This document shows, in pieces, positions 1 through 5,231 of a DNA stretch of 5,231 nucleotides (within the stretch, counting starts at the first letter, position 1; every line of letters starts with the position of its first letter). Under the pieces are notes generated by a model. The model worked only from the letters and a program-made list of their open reading frames with translations. It had not been told where the DNA came from and did no database searches. Made by a program: the position numbers and the translations under genes. Source of the stretch: an uncultured Gemmatimonadota bacterium (GTDB lineage: Bacteria > Gemmatimonadota > Gemmatimonadetes > Gemmatimonadales > Gemmatimonadaceae); NCBI GenBank assembly GCA_946479015.1, contig CAMLEQ010000295.1, positions 1-5,231 on the forward strand. Reading direction: 5' to 3'.

Positions 1-12
1 GTAACATGGAAC

Positions 13-48
13 GCGACGAAGGGCCGGCAACCGCCGGCCCCTCGTCGC
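13..48 (-). terminator. Hairpin terminator downstream of cysK
   Basis: An 8-bp GC stem (21-28 with 33-40, loop AACC 29-32) is extended, after one A-C mismatch (20/41), by a further 7 bp (13-19 with 42-48). It lies about 43 bases past the cysK stop on the minus strand. The minus-strand tail after the stem is only modestly T-rich (GTTCCATGTT), so it is either a weak-tailed intrinsic terminator or an RNA 3'-end stabiliser. The structure is nearly symmetrical and could also stop a transcript arriving from the other side. Confidence 0.65.
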
Positions 49-90
49 AAATCATTACCCACTCGCATCCCGCGCCCCGCGCCCCGAAGA

Positions 91-1023
91 TCAGTGCTCT
101 CCGGCCTCCCCCGCCGCCTCGCCAGCGAACAGCGTCGTCGACAGATACCGCGCGCCGGAGTCCGGGCTGATCATGATCACCCGCTTCCCCGGACCGAGCT
201 CGCGCGCCATCTGGAGCGATGCCCAGGCGATCGCTCCGCTCGACATGCCGACGAACAGCCCCTCCTCGCGCGCGAGGCGGCGTGCGAGCGGGAAGGCGTC
301 CTCCTCCCACACCGGGATCACGCGATCCACCACCGAGCGGTCGAAGTTGTCGGGGATGAAGCCCGGCCCCATCCCCTGGAACTGGTGCTGGCCGCGCTGT
401 CCGCCGCTCAGCACCGGTGAGCGCGCCGGCTCCACCGCCACCACCTGGATGCGGCGGTCGCGCTCCTTGAGAAAGCGCCCCACGCCGCTGATCGTGCCGC
501 CGGTCCCCGACCCGTAGACGAACGCGTCGATGCGCCCGTGCATCTGGTCCCAGAGCTCGGGGCCGGTGGTGTTGTAGTGGATGCTCGGGTTGGCCGGGTT
601 CGAGAACTGGTTCGGCAGCCACGCCCCGAGCTCCGCCTCGATCCGCTTCGCTTCCTCGATCGCGGCGATCATGCGCAGCTCGGGATCGGTGAGGACGAGC
701 TCCGCCCCGTACGCGCCGAGCGTCCGCTTCCGCTCCTCGCTCATCTGCGCGGGAAGGCAGAGGATGAGGCGGTAGCCGCGCGCGGACGCCACCTGCGCGA
801 GGCCGATCCCCGTGTTCCCCGACGTCGGCTCCACGATGGTGCCGCCGGGGCGCAGCACGCCGCGCCGCTCGGCATCGAGCACCATCCCGAGCGCCGTGCG
901 GTCCTTGATCGAGCCGCCGGGGTTCATCCCCTCGATCTTGATCCACACCTCCGCCATCTCCGGCTCCAGCACGCGCGCGAGGCGGACGACGGGGGTGCGG
1001 CCTATGGCATCGGTGATGATCAT
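91..1023 (-). CDS. cysK: Cysteine synthase (O-acetylserine sulfhydrylase), PLP-dependent
   Basis: Cytosolic enzyme that makes L-cysteine from O-acetylserine and sulfide, the last step of cysteine biosynthesis. Numbering from the chosen ATG, the protein has 310 residues, normal for the family. It opens with the family N-terminus ITDAIGRTPVVRL. The PLP lysine is K40 in NPGGSIKDR, the substrate loop TSGNTG is near 67-72, and a GSGTGGT phosphate-binding loop lies mid-protein. The block VEPARSPVLSGG...FQGMGPGFIP and a C-terminal GMSSGAI then PDSGARYLST follow. These favour CysK over CysM. The start is uncertain. An in-frame ATG at 1140 overlaps the OsmC stop (ATGGCCTCTGA) and has GGGAGG about 12 bases upstream, but it would add 39 Pro/Ser/Gly-rich residues absent from the family. 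The ATG at 1023 fits the family but has no clear Shine-Dalgarno. It is the last gene of the sulfurtransferase-OsmC-cysK operon. Confidence 0.93.
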   Translation of the reverse strand: MIITDAIGRTPVVRLARVLEPEMAEVWIKIEGMNPGGSIKDRTALGMVLDAERRGVLRPGGTIVEPTSGNTGIGLAQVASARGYRLILCLPAQMSEERKRTLGAYGAELVLTDPELRMIAAIEEAKRIEAELGAWLPNQFSNPANPSIHYNTTGPELWDQMHGRIDAFVYGSGTGGTISGVGRFLKERDRRIQVVAVEPARSPVLSGGQRGQHQFQGMGPGFIPDNFDRSVVDRVIPVWEEDAFPLARRLAREEGLFVGMSSGAIAWASLQMARELGPGKRVIMISPDSGARYLSTTLFAGEAAGEAGEH

Positions 1024-1129
1024 CGGGGCGCGAGAAGTCTCGGGGGCATTGGACGATGGGGAGGGCGCGGGAGGCAGACCCGCCGCCCCCCACTGGTAGC
1101 CCTCGCCCCACCCCCGCTTCTCCCGCGAG
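1024..1129 (-). other. Spacer or N-terminal extension with inverted repeats, between OsmC gene and cysK
   Basis: If cysK starts at 1023, this is a 106-base untranslated gap. If it starts at 1140, this encodes a low-complexity extension. The DNA carries nested complementary arms: 1057-1066 pairs with 1099-1110 (TGGGG and GAGGGC against GCCCTC and CCCCA, one base bulged), enclosing GCGGG 1067-1071 with CCCGC 1079-1083. It could be an RNA fold between cistrons, a dispersed repeat, or chance in GC-rich DNA. Confidence 0.35.
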
Positions 1130-1597
1130 TCAGAGGCCATCGTTCACGTGGACCTCCCATTCCACGGGGAGATCCGGGTCGAGCGAGTCGCGCACGGAGC
1201 AGTACTTCGTGACGGCGAGCTGCACCGCCCGCTCCGCCTGCTCCGGTTCGATCCCCTCGCCGTCGATGAAGAAGCGGAGCAGCACGTGCTTGAGGCGGCG
1301 CGGGGTCGCATCCACGCGCGTGCCGACGACCTCGACCTCGTAGCGCGACGGCGGGGTGCGCCGCTTCTTCAGGATGTCCACCACGTCCACCGAGACGCAC
1401 GTGGCGAGCGCGCTCAACAGCGCGTCCACCGGACTCTGCCCGGTCGCGGCATCGGAGTCGATGCGCGCGACCGGGCCGCCTGGGCGCCCTGCGTCGAACC
1501 GGTGGTCGCCCCGCCACTCCACGCGCACCCGGTTGGGCTCGCGCGTCGCGGGCGCGCTCGCCAGCGCGCCCGCCTTCGTCGCGTGCTCCGCGCTCAT
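1130..1597 (-). CDS. OsmC/Ohr-family protein
   Basis: A 155-residue protein of the OsmC fold. Characterised OsmC and Ohr members are thiol-dependent peroxidases that reduce organic hydroperoxides as dimers through two conserved cysteines. Both are present: C67 in [21 protein letters not shown] (residues 53-73) and C133 in [10 protein letters not shown]. The order and spacing are as expected, and the CSV context resembles the broad OsmC/YhfA group more than true Ohr, so the physiological substrate is not fixed by sequence. The start at 1597 is chosen because its ATG overlaps the stop of the upstream sulfurtransferase as ATGA, a sign of translational coupling. An in-frame ATG at 1630 would add 11 residues and a 37-base overlap. 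Lying between a sulfurtransferase and cysK, it may protect thiols or deal with reactive sulfur species; that is inference. Confidence 0.9.
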
Positions 1598-2481
1598 CGC
1601 TCGATCGGCAGGCGTACCGCGTTCCCCCACTCCGTCCAGCTCCCGTCGTAGTTGCGGACGTGATCGTAGCCGAGGAGGTAGGAGAGCACGAACCAGGTGT
1701 GCGACGAGCGCTCGCCGATGCGGCAGTAGGCGATCACGTCGGCGCCGGGCTCGAGCCCGATCTCCTGCTCGTAGATCGCGCGCAGCTCGTCGGCGCTCTT
1801 GAAGGTGCCGTCGGTGTTCGCGGCGCGCCCCCAGGGGACGTTCTTCGCGCCGGGGATGTGCCCGCCGCGCAGCACCCCTTCCTGCGGATACTCGGGCATG
1901 TGCGTCTTCTTCCCGGTGTACTCGTCAGGCGAGCGCACGTCCACCAGCGGCCGCTTCGCGCTGGCGTGCGCGAGGGTCTCGTCGCGGAAGGCGCGGATGC
2001 GCCGGTCGTCGCGCTCCGGCGCCACGTACGAGGTGGCAGGGAACTTCGGCACATCGGTCGTCATCCGGCGCCCCTCCTGCTCCCACTTCACGCGCCCGCC
2101 ATCGAGCACGCGCGCGTTCTGGAAGCCGAAGAGCTGGAACACCCAGTAGGCGTAGGTGGCCCACCAGTTGTTCTTGTCGCCGTAGAAGATCACGGTGGTC
2201 GACTCGTCGATCCCCTTCTCCCGGAGCAGCTTCTGGAACTGCTCGCGGTCCACGTAGTCGCGGACCACCGGATCGTTCAGGTCGGCATGCCAGTCGATCT
2301 TCTGGGCATTCGGAATGTGGCCCATGTCGTACAGCAGCACATCCTCATCGCTCTCGATGATGCGGATGCTCGGATTGTCGAGATTGGCCGCGAGCCAGTC
2401 GGTGGAGACGAGCACTTCGGGGTGCACGTATCCCTTCCGGAGAATCGACTGGTCGGGCGCGACGTTCATCGTGGTCGCCAT
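1594..2481 (-). CDS. Thiosulfate sulfurtransferase, two-domain rhodanese (CysA2/SseA-like)
   Basis: Moves sulfane sulfur from thiosulfate, or possibly mercaptopyruvate, to a thiol or cyanide acceptor via a cysteine persulfide. The 295 residues form two rhodanese domains. The N-terminal one (about 22-140) has D102 in [12 protein letters not shown] where a catalytic Cys would be, so it is inactive, as is usual for the family. The C-terminal one (about 175-292) has [12 protein letters not shown] and the active loop [12 protein letters not shown] with C253. This loop is the one in actinobacterial CysA2-type proteins and differs from the CGSGVT loop of mercaptopyruvate enzymes, so thiosulfate is the likelier donor. 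No signal peptide is seen, suggesting a cytosolic enzyme. The start at 2481 is supported by GAGGGG seven bases upstream; a second ATG lies four codons in. It is the first structural gene of the operon, behind a leader with a Cys-codon ORF and terminator, so expression is probably set by cysteine supply. Confidence 0.93.
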
Positions 2482-2524
2482 GATCTGCCCCCTCGGTCGG
2501 TGGTGGTGCGCACGTCGGTCGAAC

Positions 2525-2565
2525 GCCCGGCCCGCGCGGGAAGTTCGCCGCGCGAGCGCCCGGGC
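2525..2565 (-). other. Second GC-rich hairpin in the sulfurtransferase 5' leader
   Basis: Lies between the leader terminator and the sulfurtransferase ribosome-binding site. The inner stem pairs 2533-2539 with 2548-2554 (CGCGCGG/CCGCGCG, 8-base loop). An outer stem pairs 2525-2530 with 2560-2565 (GCCCGG/CCGGGC) across an internal bulge. No T-rich tail follows on either strand, so it is not a terminator by itself. It may protect the mRNA 5' end or compete with the terminator fold; function unknown. Confidence 0.4.
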
Positions 2566-2567
2566 CG

Positions 2568-2600
2568 AAAACGAAACCGGCCGCTCGACGGAGCGGCCGG
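2568..2600 (-). terminator. Intrinsic terminator in the sulfur-operon leader (probable attenuator)
   Basis: On the minus strand a perfect 10-bp stem, CCGGCCGCTC (2600-2591) with GAGCGGCCGG (2586-2577), closes a 4-base CGTC loop and is followed at once by TTTCGTTTT (2576-2568). That T-rich run is exceptional in this GC-rich window. It sits 31 bases past the stop of the Cys-codon leader ORF and 86 bases before the sulfurtransferase start. The 5' arm is also complementary to 2662-2655 in the leader ORF, giving a possible antiterminator. A simpler reading is the terminator of csaA, though it lies about 190 bases past that stop with a strong promoter signal between. Confidence 0.78.
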
Positions 2601-2616
2601 ACGGGAAGCACGTCGC

Positions 2617-2633
2617 GATCGACGATGTCGATC
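2617..2633 (-). promoter_or_regulatory. Small hairpin over the leader-peptide stop codon
   Basis: GATCGAC (2633-2627) pairs perfectly with GTCGATC (2623-2617) around a 3-base ATC loop. Its 5' arm includes the last two bases of the leader ORF stop codon, so a ribosome terminating there would keep it open. It could act as a pause hairpin or spacer in attenuation; this role is inferred from position only. Confidence 0.4.
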
Positions 2634-2721
2634 AGGAAGCGCGTGCGGCTCCGCCCGGCCGCCGCATGGCGGCCTCCCGATGGCGGATACAGCACATGAG
2701 CGCGTCCCGGTTCGCGAGCAT
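2632..2721 (-). CDS. Cysteine-codon leader peptide (29 aa), probable attenuator uORF
   Basis: A short ORF upstream of the sulfurtransferase-OsmC-cysK operon. It encodes 29 residues beginning MLANRDAL, then MCCIRHRE at 9-16, then an Arg/Ala/Gly-rich tail ending in TGA at 2634-2632. The tandem Cys codons TGC TGT (2694-2689) are its only cysteines. No Shine-Dalgarno precedes the ATG, and a TTGACA -35 is spaced so that transcription would begin at or next to the A of ATG, suggesting leaderless translation. Leaderless short ORFs with Cys runs act as cysteine-responsive attenuators of sulfur genes in mycobacteria, including ahead of cysA2-type genes; this looks like an analogue. Slow decoding at low cysteinyl-tRNA would change folding of the following hairpins. 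I do not recognise the peptide family. An alternative start is the ATG at 2697, one codon before the Cys pair. Confidence 0.62.
   Translation of the reverse strand: MLANRDALMCCIRHREAAMRRPGGAARAS
2655..2674 (-). promoter_or_regulatory. Leader hairpin with alternative antiterminator pairing
   Basis: Just after the Cys codons, GGCCGCC (2674-2668) pairs with GGCGGCC (2663-2657) around ATGC. Its 3' half, GCGGCCGG (2662-2655), is also exactly complementary over 8 bases to the 5' arm of the terminator (CCGGCCGC, 2600-2593). The two pairings exclude each other, which is what an attenuator needs. The caveat is that the sequence is nearly all G and C, so short complementary stretches are common by chance. 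Confidence 0.5.
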
Positions 2722-2727
2722 TGTGTA

Positions 2728-2756
2728 GAGCTACGGGGCCCGGCCCGGCCTGTCAA
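2728..2756 (-). promoter_or_regulatory. Promoter of the sulfur operon, leaderless start predicted at 2721
   Basis: On the minus strand a perfect TTGACA (2756-2751) is followed after 17 bases by TAGCTC (2733-2728), a poor -10 with TA retained. Six further bases lead to the A of the leader-peptide ATG (2721). The -35 match and spacing make a housekeeping-sigma promoter likely. The weak -10 could mean activator dependence or a non-standard -10. Confidence 0.6.
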
Positions 2757-2792
2757 GCCCGACTCGGGGCGCGCACCCGGGGAGCTCCCGCG

Positions 2793-3125
2793 TCACCGTA
2801 CGGCGCTCCCGTCCGCCACGGCACCGTCCACCGCGAGCAGCACCACGTCGCCGGGCGCGGGGACGGCGCCGAGCACGAGCACCTCGCTCCGGTAGCCGGC
2901 GATCCGGCGTGGAGGGAAGTTCACCACCGCCACCACCTGTCTCCCCACGAGCACCTCCGGGGTATACCGTCTGGTGAGCTGCGCGCTCGACTGCCTCACC
3001 CCCAGCCCGGGGCCGAAGTCGATGCGCAACTTGATCGCCGGCGTTCGCGCCTCCGGAAAGGGCTCGGCCGACACCACGGTCCCGATCCGGATGTCCAGTA
3101 CGTCGAAATCGTCGATCGTCGCCAT
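2793..3125 (-). CDS. csaA: CsaA-type tRNA-binding domain protein (export-related chaperone)
   Basis: A 110-residue single OB-fold (EMAP/tRNA-binding) protein. The Bacillus CsaA homologue is a homodimeric chaperone linked to SecA and preprotein export, and the fold also binds tRNA-like RNA. The length equals the usual family length. Visible landmarks are IDDFDVLDIRIGTV at 4-17, FPEARTPAIKL at 23-33, QSSAQLT at 45-51 and the signature NFPPRRIAGYRSEVLVLG at 69-86. The start at 3125 is preferred over an in-frame ATG at 3173 because it gives the family N-terminus and has GAGGA six bases upstream. The gene is divergent from the glycosyltransferase, with start codons sharing two bases, so its promoter must lie inside that gene. 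No close 3' terminator is seen before the sulfur-operon promoter. Confidence 0.93.
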   Translation of the reverse strand: MATIDDFDVLDIRIGTVVSAEPFPEARTPAIKLRIDFGPGLGVRQSSAQLTRRYTPEVLVGRQVVAVVNFPPRRIAGYRSEVLVLGAVPAPGDVVLLAVDGAVADGSAVR

Positions 3126-4263
3126 GACGGATCCTCGCGTGTTCGCGTCGTCCCGGAAAACGGCCGAGCCCATCGACGCGCTCGGCCGGACGTCCGCGCT
3201 CGCGCACGGGCGCCTCCGGGTGCTCGCGCTCTACATCGCGACGGCGGTGCTCGTCGCGCTGGAGCGCGCACTCTCTCATCACATGCACTGGACGTATCCC
3301 GTGTTCCGCGAGTCGTACGGCCACGTGCTCGCGCGGCGCGACCTGTACGCGCACTATCCCGCGCAGGGATACGACCTGTTCAAGTACAGCCCCACCTTCG
3401 CCCTGCTCTTCGCGCCGTTCGCGCTGCTGCCCTTCACGCCCGGGCTCGTGGCGTGGGACGTGCTCAACGCGGCCGCGCTCTGGAGCGCGCTCCACCGCCT
3501 GCTCGAGCCGCGCGCGGCGGCGCTCGCCGCGCTGCTGCTCTATCCCGAGCTGGTGGTGACGCTGCAGGCCTCCCAGAGCAACGCGCTCGTGGCCGCGCTC
3601 ATCATCCTCGCGTTCGCGGCGCTCGAGCGCGACCGGCCGCTCGGTGCGGCGGTGGCGATCGGCACCAGCGCGGCGATCAAGATCTTCCCCCTCGCCGCGC
3701 TGAGCTTCGCCCTGCCGCGCAACCGCCGAGGACAGATGGCGCTGGCGATGCTCGGCGTGGGCGTGCTGCTGGCCGCCCTGCCGCTGCTGGTGACACCGCC
3801 GTCGGCGCTCCTGGCGCAGTATCGCTCCTGGCTCGTGATCGAGCGCGCCGACGCGCTCGACCACGGCGCATCGGTGATGGGGCTCGCGTCGCGGCTCGCG
3901 CATGGGCGCTGGCCCAACTGGCCGATCCAGCTCGCCGGCACGGCGGTGCTCCTCCTCCCGCTGCTCCTCCGCCGCGACCGGTGGACGGACGCGGCGTTTC
4001 GCGTGCGGTATCTCTGCTCGCTGCTCGTGTACGTGGTGATCTTCAACCACCAGGCGGAGCGCCCGTCCTTCGTCATCGCGGCCGCGGGGATCGTGGTCTG
4101 GTGGGTGTGCTCCCCGCGCGAGGCGTGGCGCACCGCGCTGCTCGTGCTGTCGCTGCTCGGCCTCAAGGCCGCGCCGTGCGTGGTGGCGTGGGGGGTGATG
4201 CAGTGGGAGCTGCTCGGCGGCACTACGCGCGCCGCACCCCCCGCACGATCTTCGCCGTCGTGA
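3124..4263 (+). CDS. GT87/DUF2029-family polytopic membrane glycosyltransferase
   Basis: A 379-residue inner-membrane protein with about ten hydrophobic segments, roughly at 31-48, 91-110, 112-124, 131-148, 153-167, 172-197, 205-223, 267-282, 295-308 and 315-329, plus a C-terminal pair near 337-358. Family landmarks are YPVFRESYGHVLARRDLYAHYP (58-79, an outer loop), DLFKYSPTFALLFAPFALLP (84-103), IKIFPLAAL (185-193) and FNHQAERPSFVIAA (307-320). GT-C enzymes of this family, such as mycobacterial mannosyltransferases, transfer sugars from polyprenyl-phosphate donors to lipids or polymers; donor and acceptor here are unknown. The start is uncertain. ATG 3124 has no Shine-Dalgarno and overlaps the csaA start; GTG 3139 is an alternative, and the frame stays open back to 2974 inside csaA. 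The last 41 bases overlap the convergent dinB-family gene, and the final 15 or so residues look like unconserved tail. Confidence 0.85.
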   Translation: MTDPRVFASSRKTAEPIDALGRTSALAHGRLRVLALYIATAVLVALERALSHHMHWTYPVFRESYGHVLARRDLYAHYPAQGYDLFKYSPTFALLFAPFALLPFTPGLVAWDVLNAAALWSALHRLLEPRAAALAALLLYPELVVTLQASQSNALVAALIILAFAALERDRPLGAAVAIGTSAAIKIFPLAALSFALPRNRRGQMALAMLGVGVLLAALPLLVTPPSALLAQYRSWLVIERADALDHGASVMGLASRLAHGRWPNWPIQLAGTAVLLLPLLLRRDRWTDAAFRVRYLCSLLVYVVIFNHQAERPSFVIAAAGIVVWWVCSPREAWRTALLVLSLLGLKAAPCVVAWGVMQWELLGGTTRAAPPARSSPS

Positions 4264-4741
4264 TCACCTGTCCCGTGTGGCGCTGCGTGTGCTCGGCCAC
4301 GTGGACGAGCAGGCCGAGCACCGTGGACGGGAGGCCGGCGCGCCCCACCCGCCGCGCCTCGAGCAGCGACTCGCGCGGGGTGGCGCGCAGCGTGTCGAGC
4401 GCGTGATCGATCGCCCCCCGCGCGAGGCGGACCAGCTCCGGCGCTTCGGCGGGCGGCGACCCCGCCATCCCCTCCCCGGCGAGCACCGCGCGCTGCCGGT
4501 CGTCGAGCGCGCCGCCGCGCGCGTAGGTGAGCAGGCGGTCGATGCTTCCGGCGATGTGCCGCAGGTGAAAGCCCACGGAGGCGGCGCCGCCGGGAGTCGC
4601 CCACAGCTCGTCGACGTCGAGCGGGGACGCGGCTCGCTCGAGATCCTCGGCCGACTGCACGAGTGCGTGCGCGGCCGGCATGAGATACGGGTCGACGCCC
4701 GGGATCGGACCCCGTAGCCAGGCTTCCGGTGGAGTGCTCAT
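4223..4741 (-). CDS. DinB-family (four-helix bundle) protein
   Basis: A 172-residue protein of the DinB/YfiT-like superfamily, compact four-helix bundles that usually hold a divalent metal on three histidines. Some members are thiol S-transferases (bacillithiol or mycothiol); most have no known substrate. The likely ligands are H62 in FHLRHIAGSIDRLLTYA (58-74) and H151 with H155 in VAEHTQRHTGQ. The opening GVDPYLMPAAHALVQSAEDL (15-34) is the expected first helix. DinB as SOS gene is only the family namesake, and nothing here suggests DNA-damage control. The start at 4741 has no Shine-Dalgarno. It is divergent from the ferredoxin gene with 48 bases between, and convergent with the glycosyltransferase, overlapping its last 41 bases. 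Confidence 0.88.
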   Translation of the reverse strand: MSTPPEAWLRGPIPGVDPYLMPAAHALVQSAEDLERAASPLDVDELWATPGGAASVGFHLRHIAGSIDRLLTYARGGALDDRQRAVLAGEGMAGSPPAEAPELVRLARGAIDHALDTLRATPRESLLEARRVGRAGLPSTVLGLLVHVAEHTQRHTGQVITTAKIVRGVRRA

Positions 4742-4754
4742 GAGGATGATGGGG

Positions 4755-4784
4755 GTGAACGTCGGCTCTCGCGCACGTTAGCTT
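4755..4784 (+). promoter_or_regulatory. Possible leaderless promoter for the ferredoxin gene
   Basis: GTGAAC (4755-4760, three matches to TTGACA) is 18 bases from TAGCTT (4779-4784), which ends five bases before the ATG at 4790. Transcription would therefore begin at or beside the start codon, consistent with the missing Shine-Dalgarno. The -35 is weak. The TAGCT core recurs at the sulfur-operon promoter. Confidence 0.4.
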
Positions 4785-4789
4785 GTGGT

Positions 4790-5110
4790 ATGGGTCAGTA
4801 CAAGCATCACGTCTTCGTCTGCACATCCGGTGGCACCTGCCCGTCGCAGGGCTCCGATGCCGTGCACGCGACGCTCAAGAAAGGTGCCGCCGCGGCGGGG
4901 CTCAGAGGGGTCGTGCGCGTGAACCACGCCGGGTGCATGAACCAGTGTGGCCATGGGCCGATGGTGGTCGTCTATCCCGACGACGTGTGGTACGCGCACG
5001 TGGACGTGCACGGCGCCGAGCGCATCGTGCGCGAGCACCTGGTGGGAGGGCGGGTGGTGACGGAGTACCTCTACCACGCCCCGCCGGGAGACAACAAACT
5101 CGTGGACTGA
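4790..5110 (+). CDS. (2Fe-2S) ferredoxin with thioredoxin-like fold
   Basis: A 106-residue cytosolic electron carrier of the thioredoxin-like [2Fe-2S] ferredoxin family, whose fold is shared with the NuoE subunit of complex I. Four cluster cysteines are in the expected pattern: C11 and C17 in FVCTSGGTCP (9-18), then C49 and C53 in AGCMNQCGHGPMVVVYPDD (47-65). The following VWYAHV and a C-terminal helix around ERIVREHL are typical, and the length matches the family. No Shine-Dalgarno precedes ATG 4790, and a TAGCTT -10-like box ends five bases upstream, so leaderless expression is likely. It is divergent from the DinB-family gene. Its redox partner is not indicated by the neighbours, though some relatives sit near cobalamin or sulfur-metabolism genes. 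Confidence 0.92.
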   Translation: MGQYKHHVFVCTSGGTCPSQGSDAVHATLKKGAAAAGLRGVVRVNHAGCMNQCGHGPMVVVYPDDVWYAHVDVHGAERIVREHLVGGRVVTEYLYHAPPGDNKLVD

Positions 5111-5124
5111 GGCGCCGCGGCGCC
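5111..5124 (+). terminator. GC palindrome immediately after the ferredoxin stop
   Basis: A perfect 14-base palindrome, GGCGCCGCGGCGCC, begins on the base after the TGA. No T-run follows (CTTCCG), and the palindrome leaves almost no loop, so as an RNA hairpin it would lose its central pairs. Possible weak terminator or 3' stabiliser. Confidence 0.3.
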
Positions 5125-5188
5125 CTTCCGTGCTCGCGCGCCGCATCGTAGCGTGTGTGCGGTGGCGCCCGCGTGGAGGCGAGGTGAC

Positions 5189-5231
5189 GTGACCGTTCCC
5201 GACCAGCCGGATTCGACGACGCCGTGGACTC
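5189..5231 (+). CDS. Possible start of a further gene, cut by the window edge
   Basis: A GTG at 5189 opens a frame that stays open to the end (14 codons, beginning (M)TVPDQPDSTTPW). GGAGG at 5175-5179 ends nine bases before it. A TAGCGT box (5149-5154) about 35 bases upstream could be a -10. The product cannot be recognised from this fragment. The GTG at 5184 is excluded because TGA follows two codons later. Confidence 0.35.
   Translation, partial: MTVPDQPDSTTPWT

Follow-up and report, generated by a model that had tools for sequence, protein, structure and literature searches.

The window analysed here, a stretch of 5,231 nucleotides of Gemmatimonadota DNA, carries on its minus strand a 29-codon ORF with tandem Cys codons and a terminator-like hairpin ahead of a sulfurtransferase operon, which raises the question of whether translation of a short peptide could set the transcription of these genes according to the supply of charged tRNA-Cys. 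The initial annotation had proposed a cysteine attenuator composed of a promoter, this ORF, a hairpin, an intrinsic terminator and its tail, and all of these elements are found at the coordinates in Table 1. The proposal is supported by the recurrence of the Cys codons, the upstream ORF, the promoter geometry and the terminator in relatives, and the region is quite probably a leaderless cysteine leader-peptide attenuator, in which ribosome-mediated transcription attenuation would sense charged tRNA-Cys.

The genes for the sulfurtransferase, an OsmC protein and CysK are consecutive on the minus strand, with the OsmC gene overlapping the end of the sulfurtransferase gene. The sulfurtransferase is related to the SseA structure 3hzu (E 2.9e-115) and to the thiosulfate sulfurtransferase structure 3hwi (E 4.3e-99), which we take to be of the CysA2 type, and the nearest of its protein relatives to carry an organism name (P0002, 89% identical) comes from a Gemmatimonadaceae MAG, which makes a Gemmatimonadaceae bacterium the most likely source of the contig. 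In the cysK ORF the TIGR01139 match runs from residue 42, with about 39 residues preceding the likely start, and the true CysK start may lie near 1023. A csaA-like gene (2793-3173) on the same strand ends upstream of the leader.

The ATG of the leader ORF follows the -10 element so closely that the transcript would start at or beside it, and the initial annotation is amended here in that the ORF is probably leaderless, as judged from the consensus boxes; a strict sigma-70 scan of the window listed no promoter. The segment 2662-2655 (GCGGCCGG), for which pairing with 2600-2593 (CCGGCCGC) had been suggested, is fully complementary to it, and in the predicted structure the paired stretch reaches 13 bp (2663-2651 with 2604-2592, including two G-U pairs). 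The pairing of arms 2 and 3 (2:3) has an energy of -30.8 kcal/mol against a shuffle mean of -20.4 (z -3.9, p 0.005). The terminator is the sole terminator-like site found in the window; as shuffles yield 0.9 such sites on average (sd 1.0), it is not significant alone, and relatives of the sulfurtransferase were therefore collected for comparison. Rfam covariance models (T-box, SAM and others) gave no match in the window at gathering score, and none up to E=1 in 2480-2790; SAM-II is likewise not found in the window, and an NCBIfam search with the leader peptide gave no match.

Table 1. Features of the leader and the operon in the window (positions 1 to 5,231).
Feature	Position	Strand	Basis or remark
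-35 element TTGACA	2751..2756	-	sequence; spacer to -10 of 17 nt
-10 element TAGCTC, weak match	2728..2733	-	ATG 6 nt downstream
Leader-peptide ORF, 29 aa, MLANRDALMCCIRHREAAMRRPGGAARAS, probably leaderless	2632..2721	-	ATG at 2721
Lower-stem 5' side of extended first hairpin, overlaps Cys codons, pairs within 2655-2643	2682..2695	-	predicted fold, one sequence
Tandem Cys codons TGC TGT, codons 10-11 of 29, proposed sensor	2689..2694	-	
Arm 1, 5' side of compact first hairpin; partner 2663-2657	2668..2674	-	fold
Arm 2, antiterminator 5' arm, within ORF, end 15 nt before stop codon	2650..2664	-	
Arm 3, terminator 5' arm and 5' flank, partner of arm 2 or arm 4	2591..2605	-	
Intrinsic terminator hairpin CCGGCCGCTCCGTCGAGCGGCCGG	2577..2600	-	-21.5 kcal/mol
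U-rich terminator tail TTTCGTTTT	2568..2576	-	
Two-domain sulfurtransferase (SseA/CysA2-like), first structural gene	1594..2481	-	ORF, family and structure matches
OsmC family protein	1130..1597	-	start chosen at ATG 1597; listed ORF reaches GTG at 1630
Cysteine synthase CysK	91..1140	-	TIGR01139, 429.1 bits (cut-off 350.95)

Relatives were drawn from three samples, namely the best 80 of 541 confirmed loci from named genomes of several phyla, the Gemmatimonadota (matches at 1e-80 in 198 of 395 genomes, loci being taken among the matches listed), and the family of the genome that holds locus L001 (114 of 179 genomes with a match at 1e-100). Upstream regions were fetched for loci of the second and third samples, leaving aside a few matches that had little upstream sequence. 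The gene match was obtained in each of the 249 sequences (the window plus 248 loci), and removal of duplicates left 232 distinct upstream regions. These were scanned for a TTGACA-like box (5 of 6 positions), a spacer of 16-19 nt, a -10 box starting with TA, an ATG 5-8 nt later and an ORF of 10-60 codons; Cys content was not a criterion, and a Cys pair was defined as two Cys at most six residues apart. This Cys-blind scan found 27 ORFs in 27 of the 232 regions, 25 of them with a Cys pair, against nine ORFs elsewhere in these loci (2,005,092 bases, both strands; Cys pairs in two, L025 and L051) and none when the upstream regions were scanned in antisense (96,477 bases), counts that are not p-values since related sequences are not independent. 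Across 374 loci the ATG lies 6-8 nt after the -10 box in 44 ORFs, 33 with Cys pairs, and any other distance from 0 to 39 has 0-10 ORFs (a second in-frame ATG being counted again); this peak fits the geometry expected for leaderless transcripts. By this comparison of sequences, conservation in relatives lifts the leader above chance.

The majority of orthologue regions have no leader: the strict scan gives one in 27 of the 232, and a further 12 were chosen by eye and used. Cys spacing is very variable among the leaders (CC, CxC, CxCxCC, CCC), and the remaining peptide differs between groups; upstream of the sulfurtransferase in L109, a 60-residue leader peptide has 12 Cys (RACCCVCGCACRFERCACCC). 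In L009 and L225, promoter-like boxes upstream of the sulfurtransferase nearly abut a terminator-like hairpin with no ORF between them, an arrangement that looks like natural loss of the sensor. Among loci with at least 1.8 kb of downstream sequence, CysK lies downstream in 10 of 38 with a leader versus 5 of 174 lacking a leader, and OsmC in 8 of 38 versus 89 of 174. The next gene in some other leader loci looks, from its translation, like a SufU/SufE-type sulfur protein.

Terminators, called as hairpins that reach at least -12 kcal/mol and are followed by a T-rich tail, are present in 25 of the 27 scan leaders versus 18 of 80 randomly sampled other upstream regions; L029 (-10.9) and L178 (none) fall short of the threshold. 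The arms were compared in 38 leaders, comprising 26 of the 27 from the scan and 12 of 16 picked by eye, after five of 43 candidates were dropped (L178, L025 and L080 without a terminator, L163 with a weak one and the SAM-II-like L240); the terminator of L002 was placed by hand. The best pairing of each leader with its terminator 5' arm, measured against dinucleotide shuffles, has a mean z of -1.68 and reaches p<0.05 in 16 of the 38 (L123 being marginal). These cases are unevenly spread, with 14 of 17 in the window's group versus 2 of 21 elsewhere (L177 and L040), the group being a sorting by arm type with labels given after the arms had been inspected. Its 16 other members all belong to the family of the genome holding L001, and in all 17 leaders arm 2 is situated within the ORF, with its end 9-17 nt short of the stop codon; we think that arm 2 accounts for the RRPG/MRPG residues that recur in their peptides. 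Of the conservation by which the initial annotation had proposed to judge the leader, the upstream ORF and the Cys codons recur in relatives, and the mutually exclusive antiterminator is backed by comparison in the window's group and weakly so outside it, where the other leader types were mostly rejected as support for the 2:3 arm.

Exchange of arms between leaders provides a further measure. For 16 representatives of the arm types, the difference between own and cross pairing is -2.81 kcal/mol versus -0.65 (sd 0.65) for shuffled leaders, a value that 0 of 100 shuffles reach, although this control guards only partly against the post hoc type labels; for all 38 leaders it is -2.26 versus +0.20 (sd 0.27, 15 shuffles). 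Raw own pairing beats the cross-type mean in 25 of the 38 individual leaders and does not in 13. As exchanged arms fit worse than a leader's own, arms 2 and 3 appear to change together, at least partly.

States with a ribosome were modelled by folding only the RNA downstream of it, which could be done for 36 of the 38 leaders. For the window, a ribosome at the second Cys codon gives a predicted 2:3 probability of 0.90 before arm 4 exists, and a ribosome at the stop codon a predicted terminator probability of 0.97. Without a ribosome, 2:3 has a probability of 0.73 before arm 4, and 0.78 at full length with the terminator at 0.12; in the stalled full-length RNA the two stand at 0.45 and 0.49. 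Full-length means over the 36 leaders for 2:3 and the terminator are 0.25 and 0.66 when stalled and 0.13 and 0.77 without a ribosome, and once the ribosome stands at the stop codon the terminator mean is 0.92. Folding alone cannot distinguish stalled from ribosome-free RNA. Equilibrium folding was rejected as proof of switching, since whole transcripts are mostly in the terminator form whichever state is modelled, and for the window 2:3 prevails even when the RNA is ribosome-free; in these models a switch by folding is plausible.

The initial annotation had considered it a difficulty that a ribosome on the TGT codon would end just short of the first hairpin, which holds for the compact form (2674-2657), as the ribosome's edge lies at about 2678 and arm 1 begins at 2674. 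It does not hold for the extended form predicted for the RNA between codon 8 and the stop codon (-32.5 kcal/mol, window sequence only), whose lower stem, 2695-2682 with 2655-2643, contains the outer portion of arm 2 as well as the Cys codons, which lie outside the compact hairpin. With a ribosome sitting on these codons, the stem would therefore open and that portion of arm 2 would be freed. The position of arm 2 shortly before the stop codon likewise means that a ribosome continuing to the stop could disturb it; the usual ribosome footprint reaches no more than the final few bases of arm 2 at that point, and timing therefore matters.

From these elements we infer the transcription start, translation, stalling, termination, readthrough and cysteine response of the window's leader in the following form. 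The transcript would begin at or beside the ATG of the 29-codon ORF, and a ribosome would bind the fresh 5' end and trail RNA polymerase. With ample Cys-tRNA, the ribosome would clear both Cys codons and reach the stop codon, disturbing arm 2 as arm 3 emerges, so that arm 3 would pair with arm 4 and transcription would terminate near 2568. With scarce Cys-tRNA, it would stop at codons 10-11 and open the lower first hairpin, and the freed arm 2 would pair with arm 3, preventing the terminator and allowing transcription of the sulfurtransferase-OsmC-cysK operon. The layout fits a switch that activates sulfur and cysteine genes under cysteine shortage.

Similar leaders are found before other operons. 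In 22 genomes, chosen mostly as leader-bearing, the strict scan gave a Cys leader in 2 of 15 PAPS-reductase loci, 0 of 30 cysK loci and 0 of 21 cysS loci; the negatives are weak because at least nine of the 30 cysK loci belong to the sulfurtransferase operon, so that their leader falls beyond the fetched flank or on its border, and are not independent, and because some cysS loci are short upstream. A relaxed scan of the cysK and cysS loci returned the known sulfurtransferase leader of L259 again and some short ORFs. In a survey of cysH across the Gemmatimonadota (matches in 45 of 395 genomes, 30 loci scanned), 14 leaderless-type ORFs were found, each followed by a terminator hairpin. Six of the 30 loci have a Cys leader (ACCCM) directly before cysH; these related ORFs (L345-L350) end in (D)RTT/GTT, precede cysH by about 200-240 nt with a terminator, and showed no clear antiterminator. 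Another four (L357, L358, L359 and L370) have a Cys leader (e.g., CCPPC..C) that starts at about 610-642 in gene orientation and is followed by a terminator, before an operon read from translations as cysC-cysH-sat. These four loci also carry a His leader (HHRHHHHHP or close) and a terminator before hisG (L357, minus strand, 3078; L358, 3099; L359, 3111; L370, minus strand, 3072), extending the same design to a second amino acid. The 2:3 pairing is not significant in 13 of these 14 cysH, cysC and His leaders; the sole case with p<0.05 is L348, in which the arm overlaps the Cys codons.

The trp and his leader attenuators of enteric bacteria combine regulatory codons, alternative 1:2, 2:3 and 3:4 hairpins and a terminator before the operon. 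The window's leader has regulatory codons and alternative hairpins too, with a short Cys-codon ORF directly before a biosynthetic operon containing cysK and, by sequence, an intrinsic terminator between the two; it differs in the amino acid, in having no Shine-Dalgarno-led start and in the location of arm 2 within the ORF. In its sequence it looks like a trp-type attenuator, and it probably works like one. Leaderless poly-Cys short ORFs of mycobacteria, reportedly described by Canestrari in 2020, share the leaderless-type Cys ORF before a sulfurtransferase (in mycobacteria, cysA2 and other cys genes), and the ATG distances of the window and its relatives fit the mycobacterial leaderless start. 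In the accessible parts of the sources, Cys leader peptides of Actinobacteria have no obvious terminators and the mycobacterial ones have Cys runs near the stop codon (PMC1262725), such leaders are proposed before cysA2 (PMC4633059), and translation attenuation in M. smegmatis is cited alongside a description of the ilvB1 leader attenuator of M. tuberculosis (PMC13236596); the window's leader, in contrast, has its Cys at codons 10-11 of 29 and a terminator. The parts of PMC2965389 on cysteine and leader peptides gave no Cys leader.

Another close counterpart is uORFC-8-2, which the available part of PMC8632094 describes as a predicted Cys-codon attenuator found only before cysS in Rhodobacterales. 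Both have a tandem-Cys upstream ORF, two stems, a U-rich intrinsic terminator and a proposed ribosome-mediated attenuation by Cys-tRNA, and the first stem of uORFC-8-2 contains the Cys codons; in the window these lie outside the compact hairpin but in the lower stem of the predicted extended fold. As described in that part, uORFC-8-2 belongs to cysS in one alphaproteobacterial order, with Cys usually at positions 14-15, whereas the leaders described here are in other phyla, precede sulfurtransferase, cysH and cysC operons and none of the 21 cysS loci, and probably have leaderless starts; cysS is absent from the window's operon. Gene context therefore separates the leader from uORFC-8-2, and the terminator together with the position of the Cys codons separates it from the mycobacterial type. 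SAM-II riboswitches (RF00521) are metabolite aptamers without an upstream ORF, in contrast to the window.

Several other explanations of the leader were weighed. A cysteine-responsive leader could act without a dedicated 2:3 antiterminator, if stalling or translation of the ORF altered the terminator through coupling or steric effects, or affected translation of the next gene. The lack of significant 2:3 pairing in 19 of the 21 leaders outside the window's group and in nearly all cysH, cysC and His leaders points in this direction, as do the mycobacterial cys leaders without obvious terminators and the translation attenuation reported for M. smegmatis, as far as the parts of PMC1262725 and PMC13236596 concerned go. 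The strong terminators of the scan leaders, the significant pairing in most of the window's group and the better fit of own than of swapped arms argue against it, and we consider it unlikely, if the most serious of the alternatives.

It is less probable still that the Cys-rich nascent peptide senses metal, persulfide or redox state instead of tRNA-Cys charging. Cys is able to bind metals, and sulfurtransferase and OsmC proteins handle persulfide and peroxide chemistry, but the variable Cys spacing and divergent remainder of the peptide suit codon sensing better, and the same layout recurs ahead of cysH and cysC operons, again with Cys codons, and ahead of hisG, where the codons are for His. 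That a chance ORF precedes an ordinary terminator of the csaA-like gene is very improbable: this gene does end upstream on the same strand, and chance alone would give the window about one terminator-like site, but the same promoter, ATG distance, Cys codons and terminator are seen again in relatives, and L002 and L224 keep the leader although CsaA is unmatched in the fetched upstream stretch. A leader-peptide attenuator sensing charged tRNA-Cys is thus the preferred reading.

In the open-licence full texts searched, cysteine attenuation with an intrinsic terminator was found only as a motif-level prediction, for cysS in one order, and among titles on leader peptides in Gemmatimonadota no attenuation paper was found; new here are the phyla, the genes and the combination of a leaderless start with a terminator. 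The Cys leaders appear as a regulon-like device in Gemmatimonadota and also in some Chloroflexota, with leaderless-type starts, and the association with cysK, cysH and cysC suggests cysteine need, beyond sulfide handling, as a role of the sulfurtransferase operon. Leaderless attenuators pose the question of how a ribosome on a bare 5' AUG keeps up with RNA polymerase in order to attenuate. On balance, we lean slightly towards the view that Gemmatimonadota, and partly Chloroflexota, use a general and so far undescribed class of leaderless leader-peptide attenuators, in which the transcript would start at the start codon of the sensor ORF and allow immediate 70S loading without a Shine-Dalgarno sequence, with Cys versions controlling the sulfurtransferase, cysH and cysC-cysH-sat, a His version controlling hisG, and some relatives having a SAM-II riboswitch in that position instead.

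In Chloroflexota, the Cys-blind scan found a Cys-rich ORF followed by a terminator in L029 (hairpin -10.9) and L071, and 9 of 30 loci inspected by eye have a Cys-rich ORF (L285, L286, L288, L289, L296, L297, L298, L301 and L302). The terminator hairpin is present in the fold of eight of these nine, that of L289 having ended at an earlier T run; the folds were inspected and left out of the pairing counts. In L296-L298 and L302, an arm near the stop codon of the upstream ORF (GCGGGGGCGTTAGCC type) shows complementarity to one portion of a long-range terminator stem. SAM-II-like aptamers in Gemmatimonadota are found at the same genes as the Cys leaders, with a different sensor: L240:530-601 stands where the Cys leader would be, upstream of the sulfurtransferase (31.2 bits, under the cut-off of 36), and L352:2329-2402 on the minus strand is a SAM-II match (Rfam RF00521, SAM_alpha) before cysH at 39 bits, above the cut-off. 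TPP riboswitches (RF00059) lie near two of the cysH loci on the other strand, at L345:281-390 and L347:1093-1198 (minus).
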